IMG/VR virus record: IMGVR_UViG_3300036715_002741
Coordinates: 1 to 52,598 of that record
Origin: a virus
DNA: 52,598 nucleotides
Direction: 5' to 3' (one strand)
In this document: positions 3,109 to 42,791 of the stretch, piece by piece
Position numbering within the stretch: position 1 is the stretch's first letter
How the letters are laid out: every line of letters begins with the position of its first letter
Made by a program: the position numbers and the translations under genes
The notes under the pieces: model-generated
Databases searched by the model: none
Seen by the model: only the letters and a program-made list of their open reading frames with translations
What the model was told of the DNA's origin: nothing

Positions 3109-3180
3109 GCGAGCTGTAGCTTAATGGTAGAGTCCAGCTTTTGGGCTGGAGGTTGGGGGTTCGATTCCTCCCGGCTCGCA
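3109..3180 (+). tRNA. tRNA-like gene, anticodon probably UUG (Gln) or UGG (Pro)
   Basis: A cloverleaf can be drawn. The acceptor GCGAGC(T) pairs with (G)GCTCGC, there is a D-arm with TAGCTTAATGGTAGAG, and a GGGGG-TTCGATT-CCTCC T-arm. The anticodon stem CCAGC/GCTGG (3134-3138 with 3145-3149) closes a six-base loop TTTTGG instead of seven, or an eight-base loop if the last C-G pair opens. The overall sequence recalls bacterial tRNA-Pro, but the loop could be read as Gln. No CCA is encoded. It lies in the leader of the rightward early transcript. Confidence 0.65.
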
Positions 3181-38454: not shown

Positions 38455-39918
38455 TTATGTAAGCTTACGCTTATCTGCTATCTTGTTTATTTCTTCGTCC
38501 GTGAAAACCCTATTACCATCAGCGTCGACTTTGGCTTGTAATACGCTAACAAATCTAGCCCTAGATGTTTTATTACTAGATCCTAGTTTTTCATCATTTC
38601 CACCAACATTATCTAACGCCGGCAGATCATCATAATTAGGCAATATACTTTCGTCGTCTGGATCGGTAGCCATAGGAATCTGCGAAGATTGACCATAGAT
38701 AGCATTACCTCCAACTAGCGGATCAGCCCCAACCTTAGCGCGTAATTGATTAATGGTGAATATTCCCATATCTTTAAGCACCTTCAGTTGCTCGTTCCGT
38801 CTTGGTTCGAGCGCAATAATATCTCCCTCATCGTAAGTCAAAATCAAATTATCATTATTCCCATAACGAGGCAAAAGAAAGTTCGAAAGCTCATTAAAAA
38901 TTCTATTAGCGATAGGCAATACGGCGTTATCATAAAACATAAGCATAGAGCGCGTAACGTTATCAAGAGTCATGGTTTCGGTATTTACCAAAGCCAATGG
39001 TATCTTGAGATTTTTGTAAATGGCATTAGCAACCTCCTTTTTAAGCTCCAAGAAATCCATGTCCTTATTGCTCATTGATTGATTATCGTATTTAAAGCCT
39101 CCATTTAAAAACATCACCCTCCCTGCATTGCTAGAGCCGCTATGTGCTCTCTCTATCTGTTCTTGTATCTTCGCAGCAATATCATCATCAACCGGTGGAT
39201 CAAGCGTTAAAATACCGCTAGTAGTGGCGCCACGTTCTAGCACTGATAGATTATGCCTGTTAGCACTTTGGTGTTGGTTGATCTCGTAATAAATAGGATT
39301 TAACGGCGACATGCCGTAGATGTTGCCTTGTATGGTGGTAGGGTTGTAATGCTTAATATGCCATATTTCAGAAGTTTTAGCAGGGTTATAATATCGAAAT
39401 CTATTATTCACTTCATTGCGATTATAAGTGTACGTGCCCCAATACAACGTGGTCATCATGGTTTGCACAAAACCATCTGACCCGGGAATAAGACTAACTG
39501 CTTGTGAAGGATAACAATACAATTCTTTGGGTGGGGCTCCAGGCTTGCCAGAAGCCACACAATACGCATCTCCTGTGACCAAAAAAAAACTAACCATAGC
39601 GTAAATGAATTCTTCCCAGGAAATATCAGCATTTGGAAGCTTTAACAAATCAAGGAGTGGGTGTTTTTTAACCCAAATTTCTTGTTCTTTATCATAAATC
39701 TTTGGCGGCATTGCTGATATTGCCGTAGCTATCATATCAATAGCATTATAAAGCGGGGAGCATTTGCTATAATAACTTACTGCCAAAACCTTGGTTATGA
39801 GATAGTTTTGTGAATTGGAATAGTAATCATATAAATTGCCAAAATCCCATGCTGTATCTAAAGGTGAGGCGCTCTTTTTTTCTTGTTTTTTGCTGAAAAA
39901 CTTATTTAGTAGTTTCAT
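38455..39918 (-). CDS. Portal protein (HK97-type)
   Basis: A 487-residue protein with portal features: a start FSKKQEKKSASPLD, the SPLYNAIDMIATAISAMPPKIYD pattern, and a conserved C-terminal region containing IPLALVNTETMTLDN. Twelve subunits form the channel through which DNA is packaged and ejected. It lies between terminase and MuF genes. Confidence 0.92.
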   Translation of the reverse strand: MKLLNKFFSKKQEKKSASPLDTAWDFGNLYDYYSNSQNYLITKVLAVSYYSKCSPLYNAIDMIATAISAMPPKIYDKEQEIWVKKHPLLDLLKLPNADISWEEFIYAMVSFFLVTGDAYCVASGKPGAPPKELYCYPSQAVSLIPGSDGFVQTMMTTLYWGTYTYNRNEVNNRFRYYNPAKTSEIWHIKHYNPTTIQGNIYGMSPLNPIYYEINQHQSANRHNLSVLERGATTSGILTLDPPVDDDIAAKIQEQIERAHSGSSNAGRVMFLNGGFKYDNQSMSNKDMDFLELKKEVANAIYKNLKIPLALVNTETMTLDNVTRSMLMFYDNAVLPIANRIFNELSNFLLPRYGNNDNLILTYDEGDIIALEPRRNEQLKVLKDMGIFTINQLRAKVGADPLVGGNAIYGQSSQIPMATDPDDESILPNYDDLPALDNVGGNDEKLGSSNKTSRARFVSVLQAKVDADGNRVFTDEEINKIADKRKLT

Positions 39919-39928
39919 GTTTTGATTG

Positions 39929-42415
39929 TCACATTCTTATAAAAGAAACTGAAGGGGTTATATTTTGTCGTTCATTATTAAGTATTATAGCTAATGCGTC
40001 ACAATTTGAAACGAGAAATTTATTTGCATAATATACACCATCTTTGTCAACAGTTATATTATAAACTTTTTGCTTTTCTATTTTGCCAGTTAAGCTTTCC
40101 CGCACAAACTCTTCCACAAGTGTTGCCGCCTTTGTTTCCTCCAAAAATCTTTTTTTCAAAAGATCGAGAGCAAATACAACATTTTGCTTGTATGATTTTA
40201 TTTTTAAACTTATAGCACCACTTTTGATAGCATGATGACGAACAAAATCTTCTTTCGAGATTCTTTGCCTTACGCTTACTTTGAAAACTTTTTTTACAAA
40301 ACTCACAAAAGTATTCTTGCTTTTTAAGCCCACCAAACACCTTTTTAGCATGTTCTCTATGCCAAGCTTTCCCCTCGTCACTTCCATGCCACAATGCGGC
40401 TTTTCCTCTAATTTTTGCGAGATGCTTAAGGTGCTCTTTTGTTGTTTCTTGTCCTTTTCTCTTTTCAGCATGTAACGCCAAATGTTCGCTCCTTGAAATA
40501 CGCTCCAAGTTGCTGTAGTCGTTATTAAAACAATCACCATCTTTATGATGAATAATATCATTTTTTTGTACTTTTTTGCCGCTATAAAATTCCCAAATTG
40601 CAACATGCAATCCTTTGGGACGCTTTCTGCCATCATTGGTTGTAGATTGGCTGAGATAATACCTTCCCGTCCCCATAAGTCTATATTGTTTTCCATCAAA
40701 TACAATAATTTTTTGTATCGCCATAATATCAATCCCCCTAAAGACATGATATCAGCATTCGAGTTCATCATCAACGCATCAGCTCGAACAAAACCTGTTT
40801 CTCTTATGAAAAATGGGTGATTATACGTAACAATTGTGTTTTTATAATCCATCACTTCTCTAATTCCAGTGCACTCAGCTTTCAAAACTTTTCTAACGCC
40901 AAAAGGAGTGATTACGAAATCATTGCAATTTACATTTTCTATGTTTTTCATTCCCCATAATGTTGAAATTTTTGTTCCTGCGGCAAAACACACATCATCA
41001 TGCTCACCGTTTGGGAAGTTCGAGCATTCTTCAATAAAAATATCCAACCAAGGGGCTCCCTCAGGCAATAGCACGTTCCCCGCCTCAATAATTGGGGTGA
41101 CAGGCAATACTTTAGCTACCTTATCTTTACCGTGCGCACTAATAGGGATTACACGATTTTGATATCTGGCTATGCTTTTCATTTCGCTGATTAGCGGTGT
41201 GCCATTGGATGCATCCTCAATATACATTTTAAAAGGATTATATTTGTCTGTTTGCTCTATAAAATCACGCTTTGCTTGTGGAAATTCAACGCGTTTGCGA
41301 TACATATCTAAGATGTAAAGTTTATTCCCAACTTTCTTGCCCGTAATCCCTACCGTGAAATCGTTGCTGCTTTTTATTTTAGCCGCAAAATCCCAACCGC
41401 TTACAACTTTACCTTGTGTTGGCAAATCCTCTTTGCGGTAAAATTTCCAATATTCTCGCTTTAAAATTTCTCCTTCTTGCACGCTTGGACGTTGCAAATA
41501 TTGTGTAGCATATCCACGCGCACCCATCATTTCCTTAAGCTGCCTCAATGATTCCCCCTGAAACTTTGGGATATCCCAGAGTATCTGCCCTTTTTCTGCG
41601 CGAGGATCGGCATATAAATCGCTTTTGAATGCGTCCGCAGGATCATATTCGTGGGATAAGTTTATATGTACGCAGTTTTTTAATGGCAAGAATATTGTGT
41701 GATAATCATTGTGCCCTAAACGCTGTCCAATAATGGCCATTCGCATTTTAGACATCACGTCTTGTCGATTATATAGAGTTTGGCGTAAATAATCATTAAC
41801 CCGCAAAAGATCAGCTGCTGAATTAGCTTGCGATACGCTCATAGCGTCATCAAATAGGATTATATCGCCTCTATGCCCTGTGGTTCCGCTACCAGTTGAT
41901 ATTGCTATACGATAACCTTTTTTGTTGTTTAAATAGTTTCCTTTGGTGTTCTGGTCGGACGTTAGAATAAAGTTATTGCCCCAAAAATCTTGGAACCAGT
42001 TACTTTGGATAAGATATCGACTTTTAAGAGTGTCCCTAATCGCCAAGCCTATCTCATGAGAACCAGTAAGAAATCTAACCGAGGGATCTTTAATCCAAAC
42101 CCAAGCAGGAAATAGAACTGATACTACAAGGCTTTTGGCGTGGGCAGGAGGGATTGTAATGTCGAGAAGCTCTAGCTTAAACTCAAACAATGCTTGCAAA
42201 TGGACGCACAAACATTCTATGTGCCAATTGTCTTGATAGGGGGTGGAATCTATTACATGCCAAGCAGCCTTTACAAATTCATAAAAAGAATTCTCATAGA
42301 TCAGCTTTTCAGCGTCTCTACTCCTCTTCCTCAACTCCAAGACTGCTAAGGCTCTGTCCTGCAACGATGGCGCGCAATTCATCGTCTGTAAGTTTTGTAA
42401 AATCGACTTTTGCAT
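39929..42415 (-). CDS. Terminase large subunit precursor interrupted by an intein
   Basis: An 828-residue frame. The N-terminal ATPase has a Walker-A-like PPAHAKS (89-95) and Walker B IILFDD (185-190). The nuclease domain has VSGWDFAAK (338-346) and HDDV (472-475). The intein fills residues 476-804 and is followed by CDALAI, so after splicing the motif becomes HDDVCDALAI and the mature enzyme is about 499 residues. It cuts and pumps DNA into proheads. The frame also stays open through a nested HNH gene. It overlaps the small-terminase gene by 98 bases, and DNA packaging would depend on splicing. Confidence 0.93.
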   Translation of the reverse strand: MQKSILQNLQTMNCAPSLQDRALAVLELRKRSRDAEKLIYENSFYEFVKAAWHVIDSTPYQDNWHIECLCVHLQALFEFKLELLDITIPPAHAKSLVVSVLFPAWVWIKDPSVRFLTGSHEIGLAIRDTLKSRYLIQSNWFQDFWGNNFILTSDQNTKGNYLNNKKGYRIAISTGSGTTGHRGDIILFDDAMSVSQANSAADLLRVNDYLRQTLYNRQDVMSKMRMAIIGQRLGHNDYHTIFLPLKNCVHINLSHEYDPADAFKSDLYADPRAEKGQILWDIPKFQGESLRQLKEMMGARGYATQYLQRPSVQEGEILKREYWKFYRKEDLPTQGKVVSGWDFAAKIKSSNDFTVGITGKKVGNKLYILDMYRKRVEFPQAKRDFIEQTDKYNPFKMYIEDASNGTPLISEMKSIARYQNRVIPISAHGKDKVAKVLPVTPIIEAGNVLLPEGAPWLDIFIEECSNFPNGEHDDVCFAAGTKISTLWGMKNIENVNCNDFVITPFGVRKVLKAECTGIREVMDYKNTIVTYNHPFFIRETGFVRADALMMNSNADIMSLGGLILWRYKKLLYLMENNIDLWGREGIISANLQPMMAESVPKDCMLQFGNFIAAKKYKKMILFIIKMVIVLITTTATWSVFQGANIWRYMLKREKDKKQQKSTLSISQKLEEKPHCGMEVTRGKLGIENMLKRCLVGLKSKNTFVSFVKKVFKVSVRQRISKEDFVRHHAIKSGAISLKIKSYKQNVVFALDLLKKRFLEETKAATLVEEFVRESLTGKIEKQKVYNITVDKDGVYYANKFLVSNCDALAIILNNERQNITPSVSFIRM
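40004..40990 (-). mobile_element. Intein in terminase, inserted in the nuclease active-site motif
   Basis: Residues 476-804 of the precursor. The first block begins CFAAGTKI with nucleophile Cys476, and the Hint-type block B is TIVTYNHPFFI. The last block ends YYANKFLVSN before Cys805 of the host protein. The usual penultimate His is Ser here, a known but uncommon variation that can slow C-terminal cleavage. Between the splicing blocks the terminase frame translates the DNA of an out-of-frame HNH gene (40059-40724) into about 222 residues of no evident fold, which are removed on splicing. Confidence 0.88.
40059..40724 (-). CDS. HNH homing endonuclease nested out of frame inside the intein
   Basis: A 221-residue protein in a different frame from the terminase. 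The N-half is the plan of free-standing phage HNH enzymes: KGLHVAIWEFY, then IIHHKDGDCFNNDYSNLE (catalytic His cluster and Asn) and EHLALH. The C-half has two Cys clusters that look like zinc ribbons (CEFCKKSF...FCSSSC, CCICSRSF...CGRVC). An own ribosome site, AGGGGG, lies 9 bases before the ATG. It probably mobilises the intein by cutting intein-less terminase genes. In most inteins the endonuclease is in frame. Confidence 0.88.
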   Translation of the reverse strand: MAIQKIIVFDGKQYRLMGTGRYYLSQSTTNDGRKRPKGLHVAIWEFYSGKKVQKNDIIHHKDGDCFNNDYSNLERISRSEHLALHAEKRKGQETTKEHLKHLAKIRGKAALWHGSDEGKAWHREHAKKVFGGLKKQEYFCEFCKKSFQSKRKAKNLERRFCSSSCYQKWCYKFKNKIIQAKCCICSRSFEKKIFGGNKGGNTCGRVCAGKLNWQNRKAKSL

Positions 42416-42791
42416 TGATGTTTAATTGCCCAGAATGCTCAATTTGTGATTTTTCATAGTATCCGCGTTTTTTCCCTCGACATTTGAGATGAAATATTAT
42501 AGCGGCAGGGTTTTTGTCTTGTATGAGTTCGTAAAGTTTTCCCTCAACAAAATCTACTGCTATGTTTTCTACATCGTCAATGGCCGCTTTAAATTCTGCG
42601 TCTTCCGCGTACCAGCGATAAAAAGTACATCTTTCTATATTGGCTATACGACAAGCCTTGGTAACAATCCCCATTTGGCTTTTCATCGCCTCAATCACTG
42701 CTTTTTTCCGCATAGCATTTTGATTGCCTAAAAGTTTAGCCTTTGAGATTTTTTCACCCGTTTTATTTTTGTATGTCTTATCGCGCTTCAT
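42318..42791 (-). CDS. Terminase small subunit
   Basis: A protein of 157 residues if it starts at the ATG at 42791; a TTG three codons earlier also opens the frame. An N-terminal basic segment precedes a helix-turn-helix (GIVTKACRIANIERCTFYRWYAE). Then comes the central 'GKLYELIQDKNPAAIIFHLK' helix pair of phage TerS, and an acidic tail. It recognises the packaging site. CATAAT (-10-like) lies only 9 bases before the ATG and no Shine-Dalgarno is seen, so the message could be leaderless. It overlaps the large-subunit gene. Confidence 0.88.
   Translation of the reverse strand: MKRDKTYKNKTGEKISKAKLLGNQNAMRKKAVIEAMKSQMGIVTKACRIANIERCTFYRWYAEDAEFKAAIDDVENIAVDFVEGKLYELIQDKNPAAIIFHLKCRGKKRGYYEKSQIEHSGQLNINAKVDFTKLTDDELRAIVAGQSLSSLGVEEEE

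Follow-up and report, generated by a model that had tools for sequence, protein, structure and literature searches.

The terminase and an HNH gene on the same DNA

The locus described here raises the question of how the gene for a terminase large subunit (TerL) can stay open from end to end while a complete HNH endonuclease gene occupies part of the same DNA in another frame. It lies in IMG/VR virus record IMGVR_UViG_3300036715_002741, whose 52,598 nucleotides were analysed in full and are called the window below. We assign a probability of roughly 0.85 to the reading that the insert in TerL is a mobile intein whose homing endonuclease is translated separately, with the frame that runs through the nuclease gene being spliced out.

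The TerL frame (39929-42415, on the minus strand, as are all features of this locus) is a single open frame of 828 amino acids across the entire insert, and matches Terminase_6C (E=6e-17) and TIGR01630. The N-extein, TerL residues 1-475 (40991-42415), ends with ...GEHDDV in a nuclease-domain motif. It is followed by the N-terminal splicing module of the intein (residues 476-565; 40721-40990), with C1 and the TxxH block B (TYNH), by about 220 spacer residues of the TerL frame that show no recognisable fold (40062-40720) and are predicted to exit with the intein, and by the C-terminal splicing module (residues 780-804; 40004-40078), VYNITV...YYANKFLVSN. The C-extein (residues 805-828; 39932-40003) begins with CDALAIIL. 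The intein extends from Cys476 (C1; codon 40990-40988), which opens block A (CFAAGTKIST), to Asn804, which is followed by Cys805.

An earlier reading of the sequence alone had placed intein blocks in the 828-residue frame, and these terminal residues, together with profile searches, support it. TIGR01443 (intein_Cterm, NCBIfam) scores 19.9 bits on the window TerL, with a cut-off of 15.6, and a PDB search with a profile of the window and 62 related inteins recovered solved inteins, the best being gp41-1 (E=4.9e-20, two stretches). Among the 63 aligned inteins, C1, T28, G31, H58 and N329 are invariant and C+1 is nearly so, and PF14890 matches all 63 (E up to 0.1). The window itself has the N-terminal Cys, the TxxH of block B and the C-terminal Asn followed by Cys. 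The penultimate and block-F histidines usually help the final splicing step; both are substituted in the window lineage (SN/C; DGVYYAN), and splicing may therefore be slow there.

The HNH gene (40059-40724) is of the homing-endonuclease type, encodes 221 amino acids with an HNH_3 domain and two C-terminal zinc-finger motifs, and is read in register 2 relative to TerL. It matches HNH_3 (E=1.3e-9) and phrog_15471 (E=3e-26), and has the invariant HNH core residues H59, H60, N67, N68 and H81. AGGGGG (40734-40739), 9 nt before the ATG, is its likely ribosome-binding site, and its stop codon TAA (40061-40059) is built from the intein codons TAT-AAT of VYN. The claim of a complete gene with its own ribosome site, in a frame other than that of TerL, is confirmed.

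Structures of the two translations were predicted with AlphaFold from alignments of the window and viral-contig loci only. In the host-frame intein, pLDDT is 91-98 over the first 90 residues, about 95 over roughly the last 20, and mostly 46-75 in the middle, over the HNH gene, where one helix block reaches 86. Foldseek with this model matched the inteins 2lwy, 6riz and 6qaz, consistent with a Hint fold. For the HNH-frame protein the mean pLDDT is 90; the fold search placed I-HmuI (1u3e) at the top with a weak match (E=0.16; sequence-profile match E=5e-5) and returned no strong structural relative. In the models, the HNH-frame product looks like a protein and the TerL-frame reading of the same DNA does not.

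Distribution of the nested layout

A tblastn search against phages located the same HNH family out of frame within terL of Acinetobacter phage Highwayman, Tetrasphaera phage TJE1 and Rhodobacteraceae phage MD07, in all three in the register of the window; their records annotate terL alone. HNH-based scans of IMG/VR yielded at least about 80 loci. Together, 98 loci from the scan, the phages and the window were classed as nested in register +1 (69), nested in register +2 (5), split inteins with the HNH gene between the halves (6) and others (18). The N-exteins of nested loci match terminase large-subunit families. A scan of genome contigs with a narrow alignment located the nested layout also in loci that resemble prophages, from Nitrospiraceae, Thermoplasmatales, Nitrosotalea, Gammaproteobacteria, Patescibacteria and others.

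In a blind scan, inteins were picked by their splicing blocks alone and the insert was ignored. Among the matches listed, 69 of 80 inteins had an out-of-frame HNH match (67 in +1, three of these being remnants only, and two weak ones in +2) and 11 were mini-inteins; none of the 80 listed had an HNH in frame or a stop in the host frame. After deduplication, the pooled set of TerL-type inteins whose HNH match spans 100 amino acids or more, drawn from IMG/VR, from isolate phages and from bacterial and archaeal prophages, comprises at least 166 distinct inteins in 152 clusters at 70% nucleotide identity, counts that describe the sampled inteins and not all inteins because the search profiles were built from nested members. 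Among them, 162 have the HNH in +1, the register of the window, and four in +2, with a stop-free host frame. An in-frame HNH, sought with the same profile in the three forward frames, was found in 0 of 166 among the matches listed. The overlap that the sequence-only reading had suggested looking for in other terminase inteins is thus common there, and its premise that most inteins carry an in-frame endonuclease fails in the TerL-type group.

Signals for translation of the nested gene were compared across loci. At 43% of loci the nested HNH start is preceded by a Shine-Dalgarno match of at least 5 nt, compared with 11% of control start codons; before the HNH of the five loci first classed as +2 there is no such signal. 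The HNH gene stops on the block F codon pairs VE, YD or YN in 29 of 63 cases.

Some inteins lie at other insertion sites. The five loci first classed as +2 are L036, L051, L062, L073 and L079. In Brevundimonas phage Poludnitsa (L006 2950-3525), an HNH relative begins at the extreme end of terL, and no intein blocks were detected there.

Selection on the two frames

With the HNH protein of the window held fixed and its own codons shuffled at synonymous sites, the TerL frame was stop-free in 85 of 50,000 shuffles (mean 4.0 stops), and with codons drawn from the usage of the phage it was open in 1 of 20,000 draws (mean 7.9 stops). From the window alone, chance is therefore unlikely, in agreement with the earlier remark on the open TerL frame. 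Across loci, with expected stops taken from synonymous shuffles, the 69 nested +1 loci have 0 host-frame stops where 126 are expected, and the five nested +2 loci have 0 where 52 are expected. The observed numbers in free-standing relatives, partly more distant ones (107, with 104 expected), and in split-intein relatives (34, with 30.5 expected) are close to expectation, and the corresponding frame has at least one stop in 18 of 18 free-standing and 6 of 6 split relatives. Stop removal is thus confined to loci where the frame must be read through. Free-standing members have 3.5 expected stops per 100 codons in +1 and about 10 in +2, and the dominance of +1 may follow from this stop-poorer register of the HNH family.

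In nested pairs, changes that are synonymous for HNH and nonsynonymous for the host occur at a rate of 0.416 and the reverse at 0.170, a 2.4-fold excess of HNH-silent, host-altering changes, in counts that are not independent because pairs share sequences. The substitutions pile up where an HNH third position coincides with a host second position, and the free-standing controls show a similar pattern (0.372 and 0.179). The HNH protein is under purifying selection, while the host-frame residues look free and just stops are forbidden. The proposal that both frames are selected, and the comparison of rates suggested with it, hold for the HNH protein; in the TerL frame, selection amounts to the removal of stops. 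The description of the TerL-frame stretch as throw-away sequence agrees with its apparently free residues and with the low pLDDT of the middle.

Evolution and mobility

On the HNH tree, nested loci are dispersed, and well-supported branches force several changes; the nested architecture may have changed in both directions across the deep tree. From about 0.5 kb ahead of the intein and through the sequence that follows, L018 and L019 share 82-98% identity; upstream they share 40-70%. The HNH proteins of the window and L020 are 49% identical and their exteins barely align, in a comparison of extein and HNH identity that is limited to few clear pairs and in which short local extein matches inflate identity.

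A pair of near-identical viruses differs in the middle of the intein. In L068 and vir335 (host group Methanomassiliicoccales), the N-extein DNA is 99.4% identical and both intein ends are identical or nearly so; the TerL intein of L068 (L068 3603-4640) has the nested HNH gene, and the mini-intein of vir335 (L334 1501-1899) has an unrelated short middle and no HNH. Three further mini-inteins (L263, L271 and L283; 148-157 amino acids) keep just the last HNH zinc finger, out of frame, and these remnants, to judge from their sequence, are cases of HNH loss. Mosaic flanks, module swap and remnants fit a cycle of gain, decay and exchange. An origin of the window copy by invasion of a mini-intein by a free-standing HNH gene, as had been suggested, is not established: the nested state is spread over the deep tree, changes in both directions are possible, and there are remnants and a module swap. 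Among the loci compared, no clean case was found of an intein-free allele beside an intein-bearing near-identical virus.

Proposed mechanism and alternatives

We propose that a mobile intein has settled in the nuclease-domain motif of TerL and makes up the insert, and that, rather than being a domain of the intein protein, its homing endonuclease is encoded by a gene of its own, placed in another frame between the two splicing modules. Ribosomes on the TerL frame would translate through the HNH gene out of register, producing a precursor with about 220 junk residues, after which the splicing modules would fold together and excise themselves with the junk, leaving intact TerL. Translation of the HNH nuclease would be begun by other ribosomes, at AGGGGG/ATG within the intein, and would end on codons of the conserved VYN motif. 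The nuclease would cut intein-free terL, upon which the element would copy itself; the mosaic flanks and the module swap bear on such homing indirectly. Selection preserves the HNH protein and purges stops from the TerL frame, as the statistics above show.

Paired indels from assembly or sequencing could make a conventional in-frame HNH domain look displaced from the intein frame, and such errors may occur in a single contig. Here this is extremely unlikely: the same register recurs in at least 162 distinct inteins, from many assemblies and isolate genomes, and the HNH gene has its own start region and stop whereas the host frame has no stops. The idea that the HNH family leaves the alternative frame open by chance, in the absence of selection, draws on the stop-poorer +1 register, but it is very unlikely in view of the stops in every free-standing and split relative, their absence from the 69 nested loci and the rarity of open shuffles and codon-usage draws. 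Removal of the insert from RNA as a group I or II intron, where HNH genes of this type also reside (I-HmuI), has next to no probability, since the host frame crosses the insert without a stop and intein splicing blocks are present; an Rfam search of 39900-42450 gave no match even at E up to 1. On the independent copies, the stop counts and shuffles, and the Rfam result with the splicing blocks, respectively, we rejected assembly error, chance overlap and an intron.

The position of the gene in terL, and the finding that HNH proteins are part of packaging machines (Kala et al. 2014, as cited in PMC4422536), would suit a role of the HNH protein in DNA packaging, like that of terminase-adjacent HNH proteins, rather than in homing. 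We regard such a role as unlikely, because vir335, so close to L068, has a mini-intein without HNH, and because of the three remnants, the patchy distribution and the inteins at other sites. It is also quite improbable that the HNH protein arises by ribosomal frameshifting off the intein frame, as an intein-HNH fusion and not from its own start. In the window, 27 nt ahead of the ATG are also open in the HNH frame, and the 5-nt Shine-Dalgarno match is absent in some loci and in all five first classed as +2, but its enrichment at nested starts argues against frameshifting and for a start of its own.

Relation to known systems

The closest description concerns the brucellaphages, where a putatively intein-encoded HNH gene was reported in 2015 out of frame in the middle of terL in all annotated members (PMC4422536). 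As in the window, the HNH gene overlaps terL out of frame, a likeness by description only; in the accessible part of that report it is a passing mention that covers one closely related group, with no splicing blocks, selection test or survey described (PMC4422536). The ShiLan domain, reported in 2025, is an out-of-frame HNH insert without splicing domains (PMC11855218). It resembles the window in that the HNH lies in a stop-free insert of a phage gene, in the third frame relative to the host; however, its host gene is a non-essential methylase and intein motifs are missing, whereas the window HNH is flanked by both splicing modules (PMC11855218).

Canonical in-frame inteins likewise have a homing-type endonuclease between Hint modules, as in the CL131 dCTP deaminase intein, which has HintN and HNH_3 in one ORF and whose excision was shown in E. 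coli (PMC6293099). In such an intein the spliced-out protein includes the endonuclease, whereas in the window, which has no in-frame endonuclease, it is a different protein in a different frame (PMC6293099). Fractured genes with split inteins also have a free-standing endonuclease gene between the intein halves (Dassa et al. 2009, as cited in PMC10448857). By that account the host gene is broken, into two ORFs with an intein half each, but in the window TerL is unbroken and open for 828 codons; since one frame spans both intein halves, splicing would be in cis. The gp41-1 intein (6qaz, 6riz), the best PDB profile match and among the best fold matches to the window intein, is a split mini-intein without endonuclease, unlike the window intein with its nested HNH. 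I-HmuI, a phage-intron HNH homing endonuclease, has the HNH core in common with the window HNH by profile, but is intron-encoded and only a weak fold match.

A literature search that covered neither most subscription journals nor bioRxiv returned no description of out-of-frame nucleases as a common intein architecture, and the general pattern apparently has not been described before. New here are the prevalence, the evidence for selection on two frames, the decay to mini-inteins, the module swap in near-identical viruses and other nucleases nested likewise. We think it probable that terminase inteins in tailed viruses of bacteria and archaea are as a rule built with a separate endonuclease gene in another frame, and that inteins are general shelters for independently translated nucleases from several families, in various frames and on both strands, the in-frame intein being one outcome among several. 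Inteins could act as such shelters because splicing renders any stop-free filler harmless. The out-of-frame layout would change the textbook view of intein and homing endonuclease, in that the nuclease can be a second gene in the spliced-out stretch, and it is a widespread and under-noticed build of selfish elements. The loci also provide many naturally occurring long overlaps on one strand, with one frame coding for a selected protein and the other just free of stops, so that the evolution of overlaps becomes directly testable. Where an annotation pipeline admits a single ORF at each locus, either the nuclease or the intein goes unseen.

Further observations

In Lactobacillus phage CL2 (L012 1670-2693), a member of the same HNH family separates the two halves of a split TerL intein, a fractured-gene layout that also occurs in L035, L038, L059, L082, L103 and L116.

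Three nested nucleases of other kinds are single cases. In Xanthomonas phage FoX3 (NC_055837; L333 1611-2369, plus strand), a LAGLIDADG_2 ORF of 252 amino acids (Pfam E=9e-22) is out of frame (+1) in an intein, whose host gene one record labels head morphogenesis and another putative DNA helicase. Vibrio phage 1.265.O (MG592630; L336 1639-2379, minus strand) has a DUF559-type nuclease (E=7e-13) antisense in an intein with an open sense frame, and Gordonia phage Lennon (NC_042045; L331 1612-2322, minus strand) has an endonuclease-like gene (phrog_5046, E=3.6e-15) antisense in the intein of a head morphogenesis protein. The record of the Mycobacterium phage Gizmo portal (L332 1501-2900) notes an intein with an HNH domain; the in-frame insert is LAGLIDADG-like and gave no match to the HNH profile. 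Elsewhere in the window, a tRNA gene at 3110-3179 on the plus strand (47.3 bits) is the sole Rfam match.
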